This document shows, piece by piece, positions 17,513 through 20,972 of a DNA stretch of 64,000 nucleotides (positions are counted from its first letter, which is position 1; the number at the start of each line of letters is the position of its first letter). The DNA comes from Alphaproteobacteria bacterium (lineage in GTDB: Bacteria > Pseudomonadota > Alphaproteobacteria > Sphingomonadales > Sphingomonadaceae). Where the stretch lies: positions 1 through 64,000 of the forward strand of contig JAGWWF010000020.1 of the NCBI GenBank assembly GCA_018970445.1. Direction: 5' to 3'. The notes under the pieces were generated by a model, which did no database searches, was not told the DNA's origin, and worked only from the letters and a program-made list of their open reading frames with translations. A program made the translations under genes and the position numbers.

Positions 17513-18805
17513 TCAAAAATCGAGGATGTGCATCATCACCGGTTGCCCGCTCACCGCCGGAGAGGCGGCCATGCGGGCAAGGCTCTCCACCACATCGGCC
17601 TCGCGGGCTTCGTGCGTCACCATCACCACCATGGCATCGCTGCTGCTCGATGTGCCGCGCTGCACCAGGCTTTCGATCGAAACGCCGCAATCCCTGAGCG
17701 CCGCCGTCAGTTCGGCCAGCACCCCGGCCCGATCGGCCACATTCAGCCGCAGATAATAACGCCCGCGCCGGTCTGCCGCCGGTGCGCGGGGCAGGGCGGC
17801 CAGATCAGCCACCGGCATCACGAACGGCGGCCGCACATCGCCGCGGGCAATATCCACCAGATCGGCGACCACGGCGCTGGCCGTTGGCCCTTCACCCGCG
17901 CCGCGCCCCTGGAAAAACAGCCGGCCAACGAAATCACCTTCCACCACCACGGCGTTCAGACTGCCCATGGTCGTGGCAATCGGGTGATCGACGGGAACCA
18001 GCGCCGGGTGCACGCGCTGGAACAGCTTGCCGTCTTCCGCTTCGGCCAGGCCCACCAGCTTGATGCGGAAACCCAGCGCGGCGGCCTGGGCGATATCGGC
18101 GGCGGCCACATTGCGGATGCCGTGGGCCGCGACGCCGGCAAAATCGATGCGTGCCCCAAAGGCCAGCGCGGCCAGGATGGACAATTTGTGGGCGGTATCA
18201 ATGCCATCGATATCGAAACTTGGGTCGGTCTCGGCAAAGCCCAGCGCCTGCGCATCGGCCAGCACTTCGGCAAAGCCCAGGCCTTCGGCCTCCATGCGCG
18301 ACAGGATATAATTGCAGGTGCCGTTCATCAGGCCATAGACGCGGGTGATGCGGTTGGCCGCCGCGCCTTCGGCCAGGCCCTTGATCACCGGAATGCCGCC
18401 GGCCACAGCGGCCTCATATTTCAGCGGCAGGCTGGCTGCTTCGGCCGCTGCCGCCAGTTCCAGGCCATGATGGGCCAGCATGGCCTTGTTGGCCGTCACC
18501 AGCGGCTTGCGCTGCGCCAGCGTGCGCCGCGCCAGGGTGAGCGCCGGGCCGTCGGACCCGCCGATCAGTTCCACCACCACATCCACATCATCGCGGGCGG
18601 CAAGTTCGGTGGCATCATCCACCCAGGCGACGCCGTCAAGGCTGATGCCGCGATCCCGGCTGCGATCGCGCGCCGAAACGGCAGTCACCATGATCGGCCG
18701 CCCCGCCCGCCGCGCCACCAGATCGGCGTTCGCGCTGAGGATCTTCACCACGCCAACGCCAACATTGCCGAGGCCGGCAAGGCCGATACGAAGAGGAGTG
18801 TTCAT
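17513..18805 (-). CDS. hom: Homoserine dehydrogenase
   Basis: IGLAGLGNVGVGVV NAD-binding motif, NGTCNYIL, C-terminal ACT domain. Confidence 0.95.
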   Translation of the reverse strand: MNTPLRIGLAGLGNVGVGVVKILSANADLVARRAGRPIMVTAVSARDRSRDRGISLDGVAWVDDATELAARDDVDVVVELIGGSDGPALTLARRTLAQRKPLVTANKAMLAHHGLELAAAAEAASLPLKYEAAVAGGIPVIKGLAEGAAANRITRVYGLMNGTCNYILSRMEAEGLGFAEVLADAQALGFAETDPSFDIDGIDTAHKLSILAALAFGARIDFAGVAAHGIRNVAAADIAQAAALGFRIKLVGLAEAEDGKLFQRVHPALVPVDHPIATTMGSLNAVVVEGDFVGRLFFQGRGAGEGPTASAVVADLVDIARGDVRPPFVMPVADLAALPRAPAADRRGRYYLRLNVADRAGVLAELTAALRDCGVSIESLVQRGTSSSSDAMVVMVTHEAREADVVESLARMAASPAVSGQPVMMHILDF

Positions 18806-18915: not shown

Positions 18916-19146
18916 ATGATCCAGAGCCGTTTGACCGCAAAGGCGCAAACCACCGTGCCGATGGCCGTGCGCCGGGCGCTGGGCCTGAAACCCGGCGATG
19001 CCATCAATTATGAAATCAATGGTGACAAGGTGGTGTGCACCCGCGCCGCCAGCGTGGATGCCGATGGTTTCCTGAACAATGTCATGCTGTTCAGCGAATG
19101 GGCGAGTGACGAGGACAGCGCCTATGACACGCTTGGCCAAGGGTGA
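18916..19146 (+). CDS. AbrB/MazE-like antitoxin
   Basis: MIQSRLTAKAQTTVPMAVRRALGLKPGDAINYEINGDKVVCTRA: SpoVT/AbrB swapped-hairpin pattern. Confidence 0.85.
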   Translation: MIQSRLTAKAQTTVPMAVRRALGLKPGDAINYEINGDKVVCTRAASVDADGFLNNVMLFSEWASDEDSAYDTLGQG

Positions 19147-19456
19147 TGTGATCTGGGTGGCCTTTCCGTTTGTGGAACAGGGCCAGTTGAAATCCCGGCC
19201 AGCGCTGGTGCTCAATTTTGCCGATATTGGCGATGGTCTCTGTTGGGCTGCCATGATCACCGGTGCCGGCAAGGCGGCCTGGCCGGGGGATGTGCCCATC
19301 GCCGATCACCACGCCTGCGGCCTGCCGATCGCCTCCATCATCCGCACGGCCAAGCTCGCGACGCTGAATGCCGCGGCGGCGCAGCGCATCGGTGCAGTGC
19401 CGCCGGCAACGCTGATCGCGGTCGATGCCTGGCTGCGGACAAAGCTGGGCCTGTAA
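19124..19456 (+). CDS. PemK/MazF-like toxin
   Basis: KGDVIWVAFPFVEQGQLKSRPALVL typical PemK/MazF N-terminus; overlaps antitoxin by 23 nt. Confidence 0.82.
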   Translation: MTRLAKGDVIWVAFPFVEQGQLKSRPALVLNFADIGDGLCWAAMITGAGKAAWPGDVPIADHHACGLPIASIIRTAKLATLNAAAAQRIGAVPPATLIAVDAWLRTKLGL

Positions 19457-19480: not shown

Positions 19481-20692
19481 TCAGCCCCCAGCCTTCACCG
19501 ACGGCGTGTTCACCCCCATCGATTGCAGATATTTGCGGATGTTGCGCGCGGCCTGGCGCAGGCGCTGTTCATTTTCCACCATGGCGATGCGCACGAAACC
19601 CTCGCCATCCTCGCCATAGCCAACGCCCGGCGCCACCGCGACGCCGGCTTGCGTGAGCAGCTGCTTGGAAAATTCGAGACTCCCAAGATGCGCCAGCGCC
19701 GGCGGCAGCGGGGCCCAGGCGAACATGCTGGCGCGCGGCGGCGGAATATCCCAGCCGGCCCGGCCAAAGCTTTCCACCAGCACGTCGCGGCGGCGGTGAT
19801 ACAGCGCGCGATTCTGCGCCACGATATCCTGCGGGCCGTTCAGCGCCGCCACCGCCGCCGCCTGGATCGGCGTGAACGCACCATAATCCAGATAGGATTT
19901 CACCCGGGTCAGCGCCGAAATCAGCGTCTTGTTGCCCACCGCAAAGCCGATGCGCCAGCCGGCCATGGAGTACGTCTTGCTCATCGAGGTGAATTCGATC
20001 GCCACATCCCTGGCGCCCGGCACCTGCAGGATCGACGGCGTGGGGCAGCCATCAAACCAGATTTCCGAATAGGCCAGATCGGACAGCACCCAGATATTGT
20101 GCTTTTTCGCAAAGGCCACCACCCGTTCATAAAAGGCCAGATCGGCCACTTCGGCGGTGGGGTTGCTGGGGTATCCCATCACCAGCACGCTGGGGCGGGG
20201 CACGGTGAAGCGCACGGCGCGTTCCAGCGCCTCGAAATAGCGTTCGTCCGGCGTGGTCGGCACGCTGCGGATCGTCGCCCCGGCAATGATGAAGCCGAAG
20301 GTGTGGATGGGGTAGGACGGGTTGGGCGCCAGCACCACATCACCGGGCGCGGTGATCGCCTGGGCCAGATTGGCCAGGCCTTCCTTGCTGCCCAGCGTCA
20401 CCACCACTTCGCTGTCGGGATCAAGATCCACGCCAAAGCGCCGCTCGTAATAGGCCGCCTGCGCCTTGCGCAGGCCGGGAATGCCCTTGGACGCGCTGTA
20501 GCCGTGCGCATCCGGCTTGGCCGCCACTTCGGCCAGCTTGGCGATCACGTGGGGCGGCGGCGGCAGATCGGGATTGCCCATGCCCAGATCGATGATGTCG
20601 TCTCCGCGCGCGCGCGCTGCGGCCCGCATGGCGTTCACTTCCGCAATCACATAGGGCGGCAAGCGTTTGATGCGGTAGAATTCGTCCTGCAT
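19481..20692 (-). CDS. alaC: AlaC/LL-DAP-aminotransferase-like PLP aminotransferase (likely glutamate-pyruvate/alanine aminotransferase)
   Basis: Class I/II aminotransferase; DLGMGNPDLPPPPHV, SMSKTYSMAGWRIGFAVGN; close to AlaC-type sequences. Confidence 0.88.
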   Translation of the reverse strand: MQDEFYRIKRLPPYVIAEVNAMRAAARARGDDIIDLGMGNPDLPPPPHVIAKLAEVAAKPDAHGYSASKGIPGLRKAQAAYYERRFGVDLDPDSEVVVTLGSKEGLANLAQAITAPGDVVLAPNPSYPIHTFGFIIAGATIRSVPTTPDERYFEALERAVRFTVPRPSVLVMGYPSNPTAEVADLAFYERVVAFAKKHNIWVLSDLAYSEIWFDGCPTPSILQVPGARDVAIEFTSMSKTYSMAGWRIGFAVGNKTLISALTRVKSYLDYGAFTPIQAAAVAALNGPQDIVAQNRALYHRRRDVLVESFGRAGWDIPPPRASMFAWAPLPPALAHLGSLEFSKQLLTQAGVAVAPGVGYGEDGEGFVRIAMVENEQRLRQAARNIRKYLQSMGVNTPSVKAGG

Positions 20693-20739: not shown

Positions 20740-20780
20740 AAAAGAAAAGCGGCGGAGGAACCTGTTTGTTCCGCCGCCGC
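20740..20780 (-). terminator. Intrinsic terminator between leader ORF and alaC (region 3:4 of the proposed attenuator)
   Basis: Minus strand GCGGCGGCGGAAC-AAACAG-GTTCCTCCGCCGC-TTTTCTTTT: 12 bp, one mismatch, U-rich tail. Confidence 0.85.
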
Positions 20781-20810
20781 CGGTGAGAGGCTGTGATTGT
20801 TGCGTCAGCC

Positions 20811-20906
20811 TCAGGTCGGTGGCGGCGCAGCGGCCATGGCGGCAGCCGCGGCGGCAGCGGTTGCTGCGCCGGCACTGGTGGCCGCGATGATCGCCTGATG
20901 GCGCAT
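20811..20906 (-). CDS. Putative alanine-rich leader peptide MRHQAIIAATSAGAATAAAAAAAMAAAPPPT (31 aa)
   Basis: ATG at 20906 with upstream GGAG SD (9-nt spacing), TGA at 20813-20811, terminator about 30 nt downstream, then alaC. Confidence 0.7.
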   Translation of the reverse strand: MRHQAIIAATSAGAATAAAAAAAMAAAPPPT

Positions 20907-20943
20907 GCCATGTTTCTCCGCCGGATCGAACCCGGCAGTTCGG

Positions 20944-20972
20944 CGCATAGACCAAAAGGCCGGGCTTGGCAA
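20944..20972 (-). promoter_or_regulatory. Possible sigma70-type promoter for leader/alaC
   Basis: Minus strand TTGCCA-17 nt-TATGCG, about 40 nt upstream of the leader ATG; -10 is weak. Confidence 0.4.

Follow-up and report, generated by a model that had tools for sequence, protein, structure and literature searches.

A probable alanine-responsive leader-peptide attenuator upstream of alaC in one clade of Sandarakinorhabdus

The alaC-type aminotransferase gene in the window (the whole stretch of 64,000 nucleotides that was analyzed) is preceded on the minus strand by a leader that, from sequence comparison of 12 genomes and modeled folding states, is very probably a ribosome-mediated transcription attenuator through which the supply of charged Ala-tRNA sets the level of alaC expression. 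It is probably also the first attenuator of this type to sense alanine, with a single origin in Sandarakinorhabdus, an antiterminator tipped by a stop-codon hairpin, and readthrough as the default state of the untranslated RNA. The original prediction had placed the promoter, the GGAG, the 31-codon open reading frame (ORF), the terminator and alaC at the right coordinates, as read directly, and all the complementarities it described exist in the window sequence. The leader runs from the promoter (20972-20944) through the ORF (20906-20811) and the terminator (20781-20740) to the alaC ATG at 20692, and the features of the locus are as follows:

20944-20972, minus strand: candidate promoter TTGCCA-17-TATGCG, read directly
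20920-20936, minus strand: 5' UTR hairpin GCCGG..CCGGC (GCCGGGTTCGATCCGGC), immediately 5' of the Shine-Dalgarno sequence, from alignment by eye
20916-20919, minus strand: Shine-Dalgarno sequence GGAG, with the start codon 9 nt downstream, read directly
20811-20906, minus strand: leader peptide ORF of 31 codons with 16 Ala, MRHQAIIAATSAGAATAAAAAAAMAAAPPPT, read directly and with in-frame homologues in 12 genomes
20849-20871, minus strand: P1 hairpin within the Ala run, codons 12 to 20, GGCGCAGC..GCUGCCGCC, conserved in 11 of 12 leaders with covarying pairs
20817-20827, minus strand: region 2, the 5' arm of the antiterminator, CGCCGCCACCG, coding for the Pro run and pairing with region 3 in 12 of 12 leaders
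20787-20812, minus strand: stop-codon hairpin GAGGCUG..CAGCCUC, the tip of the antiterminator, which folds in 12 of 12 leaders
20772-20782, minus strand: region 3, CGGCGGCGGCG, common to antiterminator and terminator and near-invariant in 12 leaders
20740-20781, minus strand: intrinsic terminator, a region 3:4 stem followed by TTTTCTTTT, with 13 pairs, 100% paired in all leaders
19481-20692, minus strand: alaC-type aminotransferase gene, the proposed regulated gene, with 2x5d as best PDB match
17513-18805, minus strand: hom, homoserine dehydrogenase gene with an estimated start codon, the next operon gene in relatives

The promoter boxes TTGCCA (20972-20967) and TATGCG (20949-20944) are separated by a 17-nt spacer, and in the alignment the letters CTTTGCCAA..YTATG are retained in most of the 12 leaders, with S. 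rubra (L043) departing. At the place of the 5' UTR hairpin, an inverted repeat with other letters was recognized by eye in 11 of the 12 aligned leaders, and the hairpin is absent from some of the single-sequence folds. Most relatives have a purine-rich GGAG or AAGGA at the Shine-Dalgarno position. The ORF starts with the ATG at 20906 and ends with a TGA stop codon (20813-20811). A scanner for sigma-70 promoters and terminators flagged neither the promoter nor the terminator of the leader; it works with strict consensus rules that apparently disallow a mismatched stem. Between the terminator and alaC there is also a dyad, GTTGCC-TAA-GGCAAC (20731-20717, minus strand), which in relatives reads TTGCCTAAGGCAA or CTGCCTAAGGCAG, a paired change, and is absent from the limnophila group, where AAGGA may act as the alaC Shine-Dalgarno sequence.

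A run of codons for the presumed end product thus stands before an AlaC-type enzyme, whose activity is taken from homology: 16 of the 31 codons are Ala (GCC 7, GCG 4, GCT 3, and GCA 2), including 10 of the 11 codons from 17 to 27. Among the frames ending near strong intrinsic terminators in 464 kb of the same genome (approximately 15% of it, both strands, 28 such terminators), the leader ORF has the highest single-residue density with 10/11; the runners-up reach 8/11, and the Ala-rich one among them is apparently the tail of a longer protein. GCA and GCT account for 26% and 17% of the Ala codons in the 12 leaders versus 5% and 4% in five genes of the window, so the Ala run is not merely a reflection of the GC-rich background. 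In theory, the sensitivity of an attenuator is tuned by codon choice (PMC1183508).

The Ala-rich leader ORF of the original prediction has in-frame counterparts in all 12 carriers, with 25 to 33 codons, an ATG or GTG start and 12 to 17 Ala. Synonymous variation, already apparent as change between Ala codons, occurs in 14 of 15 Ala-majority columns; the third codon position varies in 27 of 31 ORF columns versus 20 and 19 for the other positions, and gaps are multiples of three within the aligned ORF and not past the stop. Such comparisons indicate that selection maintains the leader ORF as a reading frame. With its conserved start and Shine-Dalgarno-like site upstream of a biosynthetic gene in 12 genomes, the ORF is predicted to be translatable.

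The 2:3 antiterminator was borne out by folding and covariation. Region 2, the stop-codon hairpin and region 3 form one long hairpin in 12 of 12 leaders (-23.7 to -34.3 kcal/mol), mutually exclusive with the terminator. Its covariation, 12 double-change cells versus 5.0 in shuffled controls (none of 500 shuffles reaching it) and at most 6 in slid controls, comes from a structure-guided alignment that leans towards the structure, and here as in the counts below the shuffled controls overstate significance, since all leader carriers are related. The hairpin at the antiterminator tip, whose 5' arm begins inside the stop codon, had been overlooked. Its letters shift and its pairing stays (GAGGCUG..CAGCCUC, GAGGG..CCCUC, and GAGAGUU..AACUCUC), with covarying columns 24-46 (GC/AU) and 25-45 (GC/CG/AU), and it folds better than shuffles with a combined P of 2.5e-8 over sequences that are not independent. 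An intrinsic terminator is predicted between the leader ORF and the gene (approximately -23 to -25 kcal/mol in predicted folds), and its region 3:4 stem, also proposed originally, is kept in all 12 leaders; 4 genomes show a double change there from G-C to A-U (4 double-change cells versus 1.5 in shuffled controls, 2 of 500). A conserved C-U or C-C mismatch lies within the terminator stem, presumably left unrepaired because that base pairs in the antiterminator.

Compensatory changes, expected in the 1:2, 2:3 and 3:4 pairings alike, were found in the antiterminator and 3:4; the 1:2 pairing is not conserved. The 9-bp match between regions 1 and 2 is real in the window genome, the only member of the leader family that has it. 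Among the relatives, region 2 lacks any consistent partner on its upstream side, and the untranslated RNA, before region 4 exists, is predicted to pair 2:3 rather than 1:2. The role given to region 1 as protector, which in the textbook trp and his case blocks region 2 without translation, was therefore not upheld; such a protector belongs to the textbook form and is not required for leader-peptide attenuation. Instead, region 1 and the codons just 3' of it form P1 locally, gapless and 100% paired in 11 leaders, with two covarying pairs (A-U/U-A and C-G/U-A), the C-G to U-A double change costing an Ala to Thr replacement in L039. P1 has 4 double-change cells versus 1.3 in shuffled controls (1 of 500) and 0 in slid controls. 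Its fold energy alone does not differ significantly from synonymous-codon shuffles (P of approximately 0.1 to 0.2 each), so the compensatory changes alone count for P1. P1 probably serves for pausing or pacing, like the first hairpin of the trp and his leaders.

Leader states were simulated with free-energy models and an assumed ribosome footprint. When the simulated ribosome was stalled within the Ala codons, its A site at codons 16 to 22, 2:3 formed ahead of region 4 synthesis in almost all cases; when it was placed on the stop codon, 3:4 was the only one of the two pairings able to form, in 12 of 12 leaders. Equilibrium folds of the full-length leader mix 2:3 and 3:4, so the outcome depends on timing. 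In the proposed mechanism, a shortage of charged Ala-tRNA would stall the ribosome in the Ala run with its A site up to approximately codon 22, leaving region 2 (20827-20817) free to form the antiterminator before region 4 is made, and the polymerase would read on into alaC. With Ala-tRNA plentiful, the ribosome would reach the stop codon (20813-20811) and cover region 2 and the 5' arm of the stop-codon hairpin, so that region 3 would pair with region 4 and transcription would end. From this leader sequence, we infer that alaC responds to alanine. Since P1 does not protect region 2, the switch without a ribosome should lean to readthrough. After loss of the start codon, readthrough is thus predicted to tend upwards, contrary to the trp case of the textbooks, whereas the original 1:2 model predicts a decrease.

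Three other readings of the locus were weighed. An ordinary small protein gene, or its remnant, ending in its own terminator, with alaC expressed from its own promoter or by leaky readthrough, is improbable: several leaderless sister species do hold a small protein gene (at least approximately 80 amino acids) and a terminator at the same site between phaC and alaC, and the leader terminator could be an inheritance from such a gene, but the leader peptide is near-homopolymeric, the stop codon was relocated in two species (L035 and L055) with antiterminator and terminator unchanged in place, and the covariation of the antiterminator and P1 is unnecessary for a plain terminator. Somewhat less probable still is a sensor of the nascent peptide or of translation stress, in which the Ala/Pro-rich peptide or its PPP end would stall the ribosome on a signal other than alanine and operate the same RNA switch. 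Polyproline is able to pause ribosomes, Pro-Pro stands before the stop in 12 of 12 leaders, and most also carry A-(I/T)-I close to the start, which speaks for such a sensor. The Pro codons, however, fall within region 2, and the pairing of that region accounts for their conservation; peptide identity is loose outside Ala, with several Ala positions holding T, S, I, M or G in relatives, unlike a fixed arrest peptide.

That a GC-rich genome produced the Ala-rich frame and a CGG/CCG repeat stem by chance is hardly credible and already disfavoured by the comparative data. The GC content is high, and any GCC repeat can by nature pair with a GGC repeat, but the leader is the top case of the 464 kb, persists in 12 species through codon-level and compensatory changes, and is enriched in rare Ala codons.

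Ribosome-mediated attenuation by alanine, the favoured reading, was compared with known systems. Rfam at the gathering score returned tRNA only in the 64-kb window, with no leader, riboswitch or T-box family, and a relaxed search of the leader region gave chance-level matches to unrelated families. The literature search for an existing alanine leader or attenuator found no paper, in keeping with the original prediction, and its coverage of subscription papers is thin, so this absence is not proof. The ribosome-mediated attenuators listed in PMC1183508 are those of the proteobacterial his, trp, thr, leu, ilv and pheA operons. Shared with them are a leader ORF rich in the pathway amino acid, a stop codon before the alternative hairpins, an antiterminator and terminator with a common arm, and an intrinsic terminator before the first gene; the alaC leader differs in its use of alanine, in having no conserved 1:2 protector and in the stop-codon hairpin that caps its antiterminator, and its sequence is unrelated to all Rfam leader families. 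In the ilvB1 upstream ORF of Mycobacterium tuberculosis, too, a ribosome at the stop masks the antiterminator arm and a stall frees it (PMC13236596), although that ORF has branched-chain codons and belongs to another phylum, with no sequence relation expected.

If the alanine reading is true, a very common amino acid is sensed by attenuation despite a GC-rich genome full of Ala codons, and leader-peptide switches can arise within one genus. The 12 leaders would then provide clean natural variation with which the role of codon choice in attenuators could be tested. In E. coli, alaC and alaA are probably controlled by DNA-binding regulators and not by a leader peptide. The E. coli enzyme, AlaC, is of the same type as here (PMC4094517).

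The downstream enzyme had been called AlaC-type, and its best PDB match is indeed 2x5d (497 bits, residues 4-400), the structure named PaAlaC (PMC4094517); matches to LL-diaminopimelate (LL-DAP) aminotransferases score approximately 104 bits or less. The closest characterised relative is thus AlaC and not LL-DAP aminotransferase, and alanine activity is predicted by homology. The NCBIfam equivalog NF006604 labels the enzyme LL-diaminopimelate aminotransferase, and the AlaC model NF006033 falls below its cutoff; the name of NF006604 is possibly a misannotation of the family. The leader would add functional evidence that the family so annotated makes alanine in these bacteria. In relatives, alaC, hom, and glpX are consecutive, with hom directly after alaC in L062-L064, and the presence in the operon of hom and glpX, which are not alanine genes, counts against the alanine reading. 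In the window, a toxin-antitoxin pair separates alaC from hom. It consists of PrlF/MazE-like antitoxin and PemK/MazF-like toxin genes (18916-19456, plus strand), on the strand opposite alaC and hom.

Orthologues of alaC were compared in 151 genomes of the family, 24 genomes of the genus and 80 named loci. The source genome was placed in Sandarakinorhabdus, with upstream regions of same-genus loci identical to those of S. limnophila DSM 17366 and S. rubra MO-4. A comparison of alaC upstream regions, which had been suggested across Sphingomonadales, confirmed conservation in 12 of the 24 Sandarakinorhabdus genomes and confined it to a single clade with 100/100 support in the alaC tree. No such leader was found in approximately 200 other Sphingomonadaceae alaC orthologues (219 distinct upstream regions scanned from the family and the named loci), and no comparable Ala-rich leader in 44 upstream regions from other alphaproteobacterial families. 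An RNA model recovered a single leader per carrier genome, always before alaC (77.9 to 112.8 bits), with next-best matches of at most 26.7 bits in the genus and at most 31.4 bits in 401 genomes of the order. Several of the weak matches inspected in the 401 genomes were terminators of ordinary genes (pilin-like), and none of those inspected had a short Ala-rich ORF like that of the leader beside it. In S. rubra, the sequence directly upstream of the promoter has been replaced and the leader is still with alaC. The leader arose once within the Sandarakinorhabdus clade, and it may have grown from a small gene or ORF plus terminator like those of sister species.

The interval between phaC and alaC holds a small protein gene and a terminator in L044, L045, L047-L050, L052, L054, L018, and L019. 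These proteins often have approximately 80 amino acids, a signal-peptide-like start and Cys residues, and a Pfam scan of two of them gave nothing above the cutoff. In L051 and L053, which the RNA model does not match, different short Ala-rich ORFs (15/30 and 22/37 Ala) are located upstream of alaC and followed by a GC-rich terminator, with a possible antiterminator pairing.
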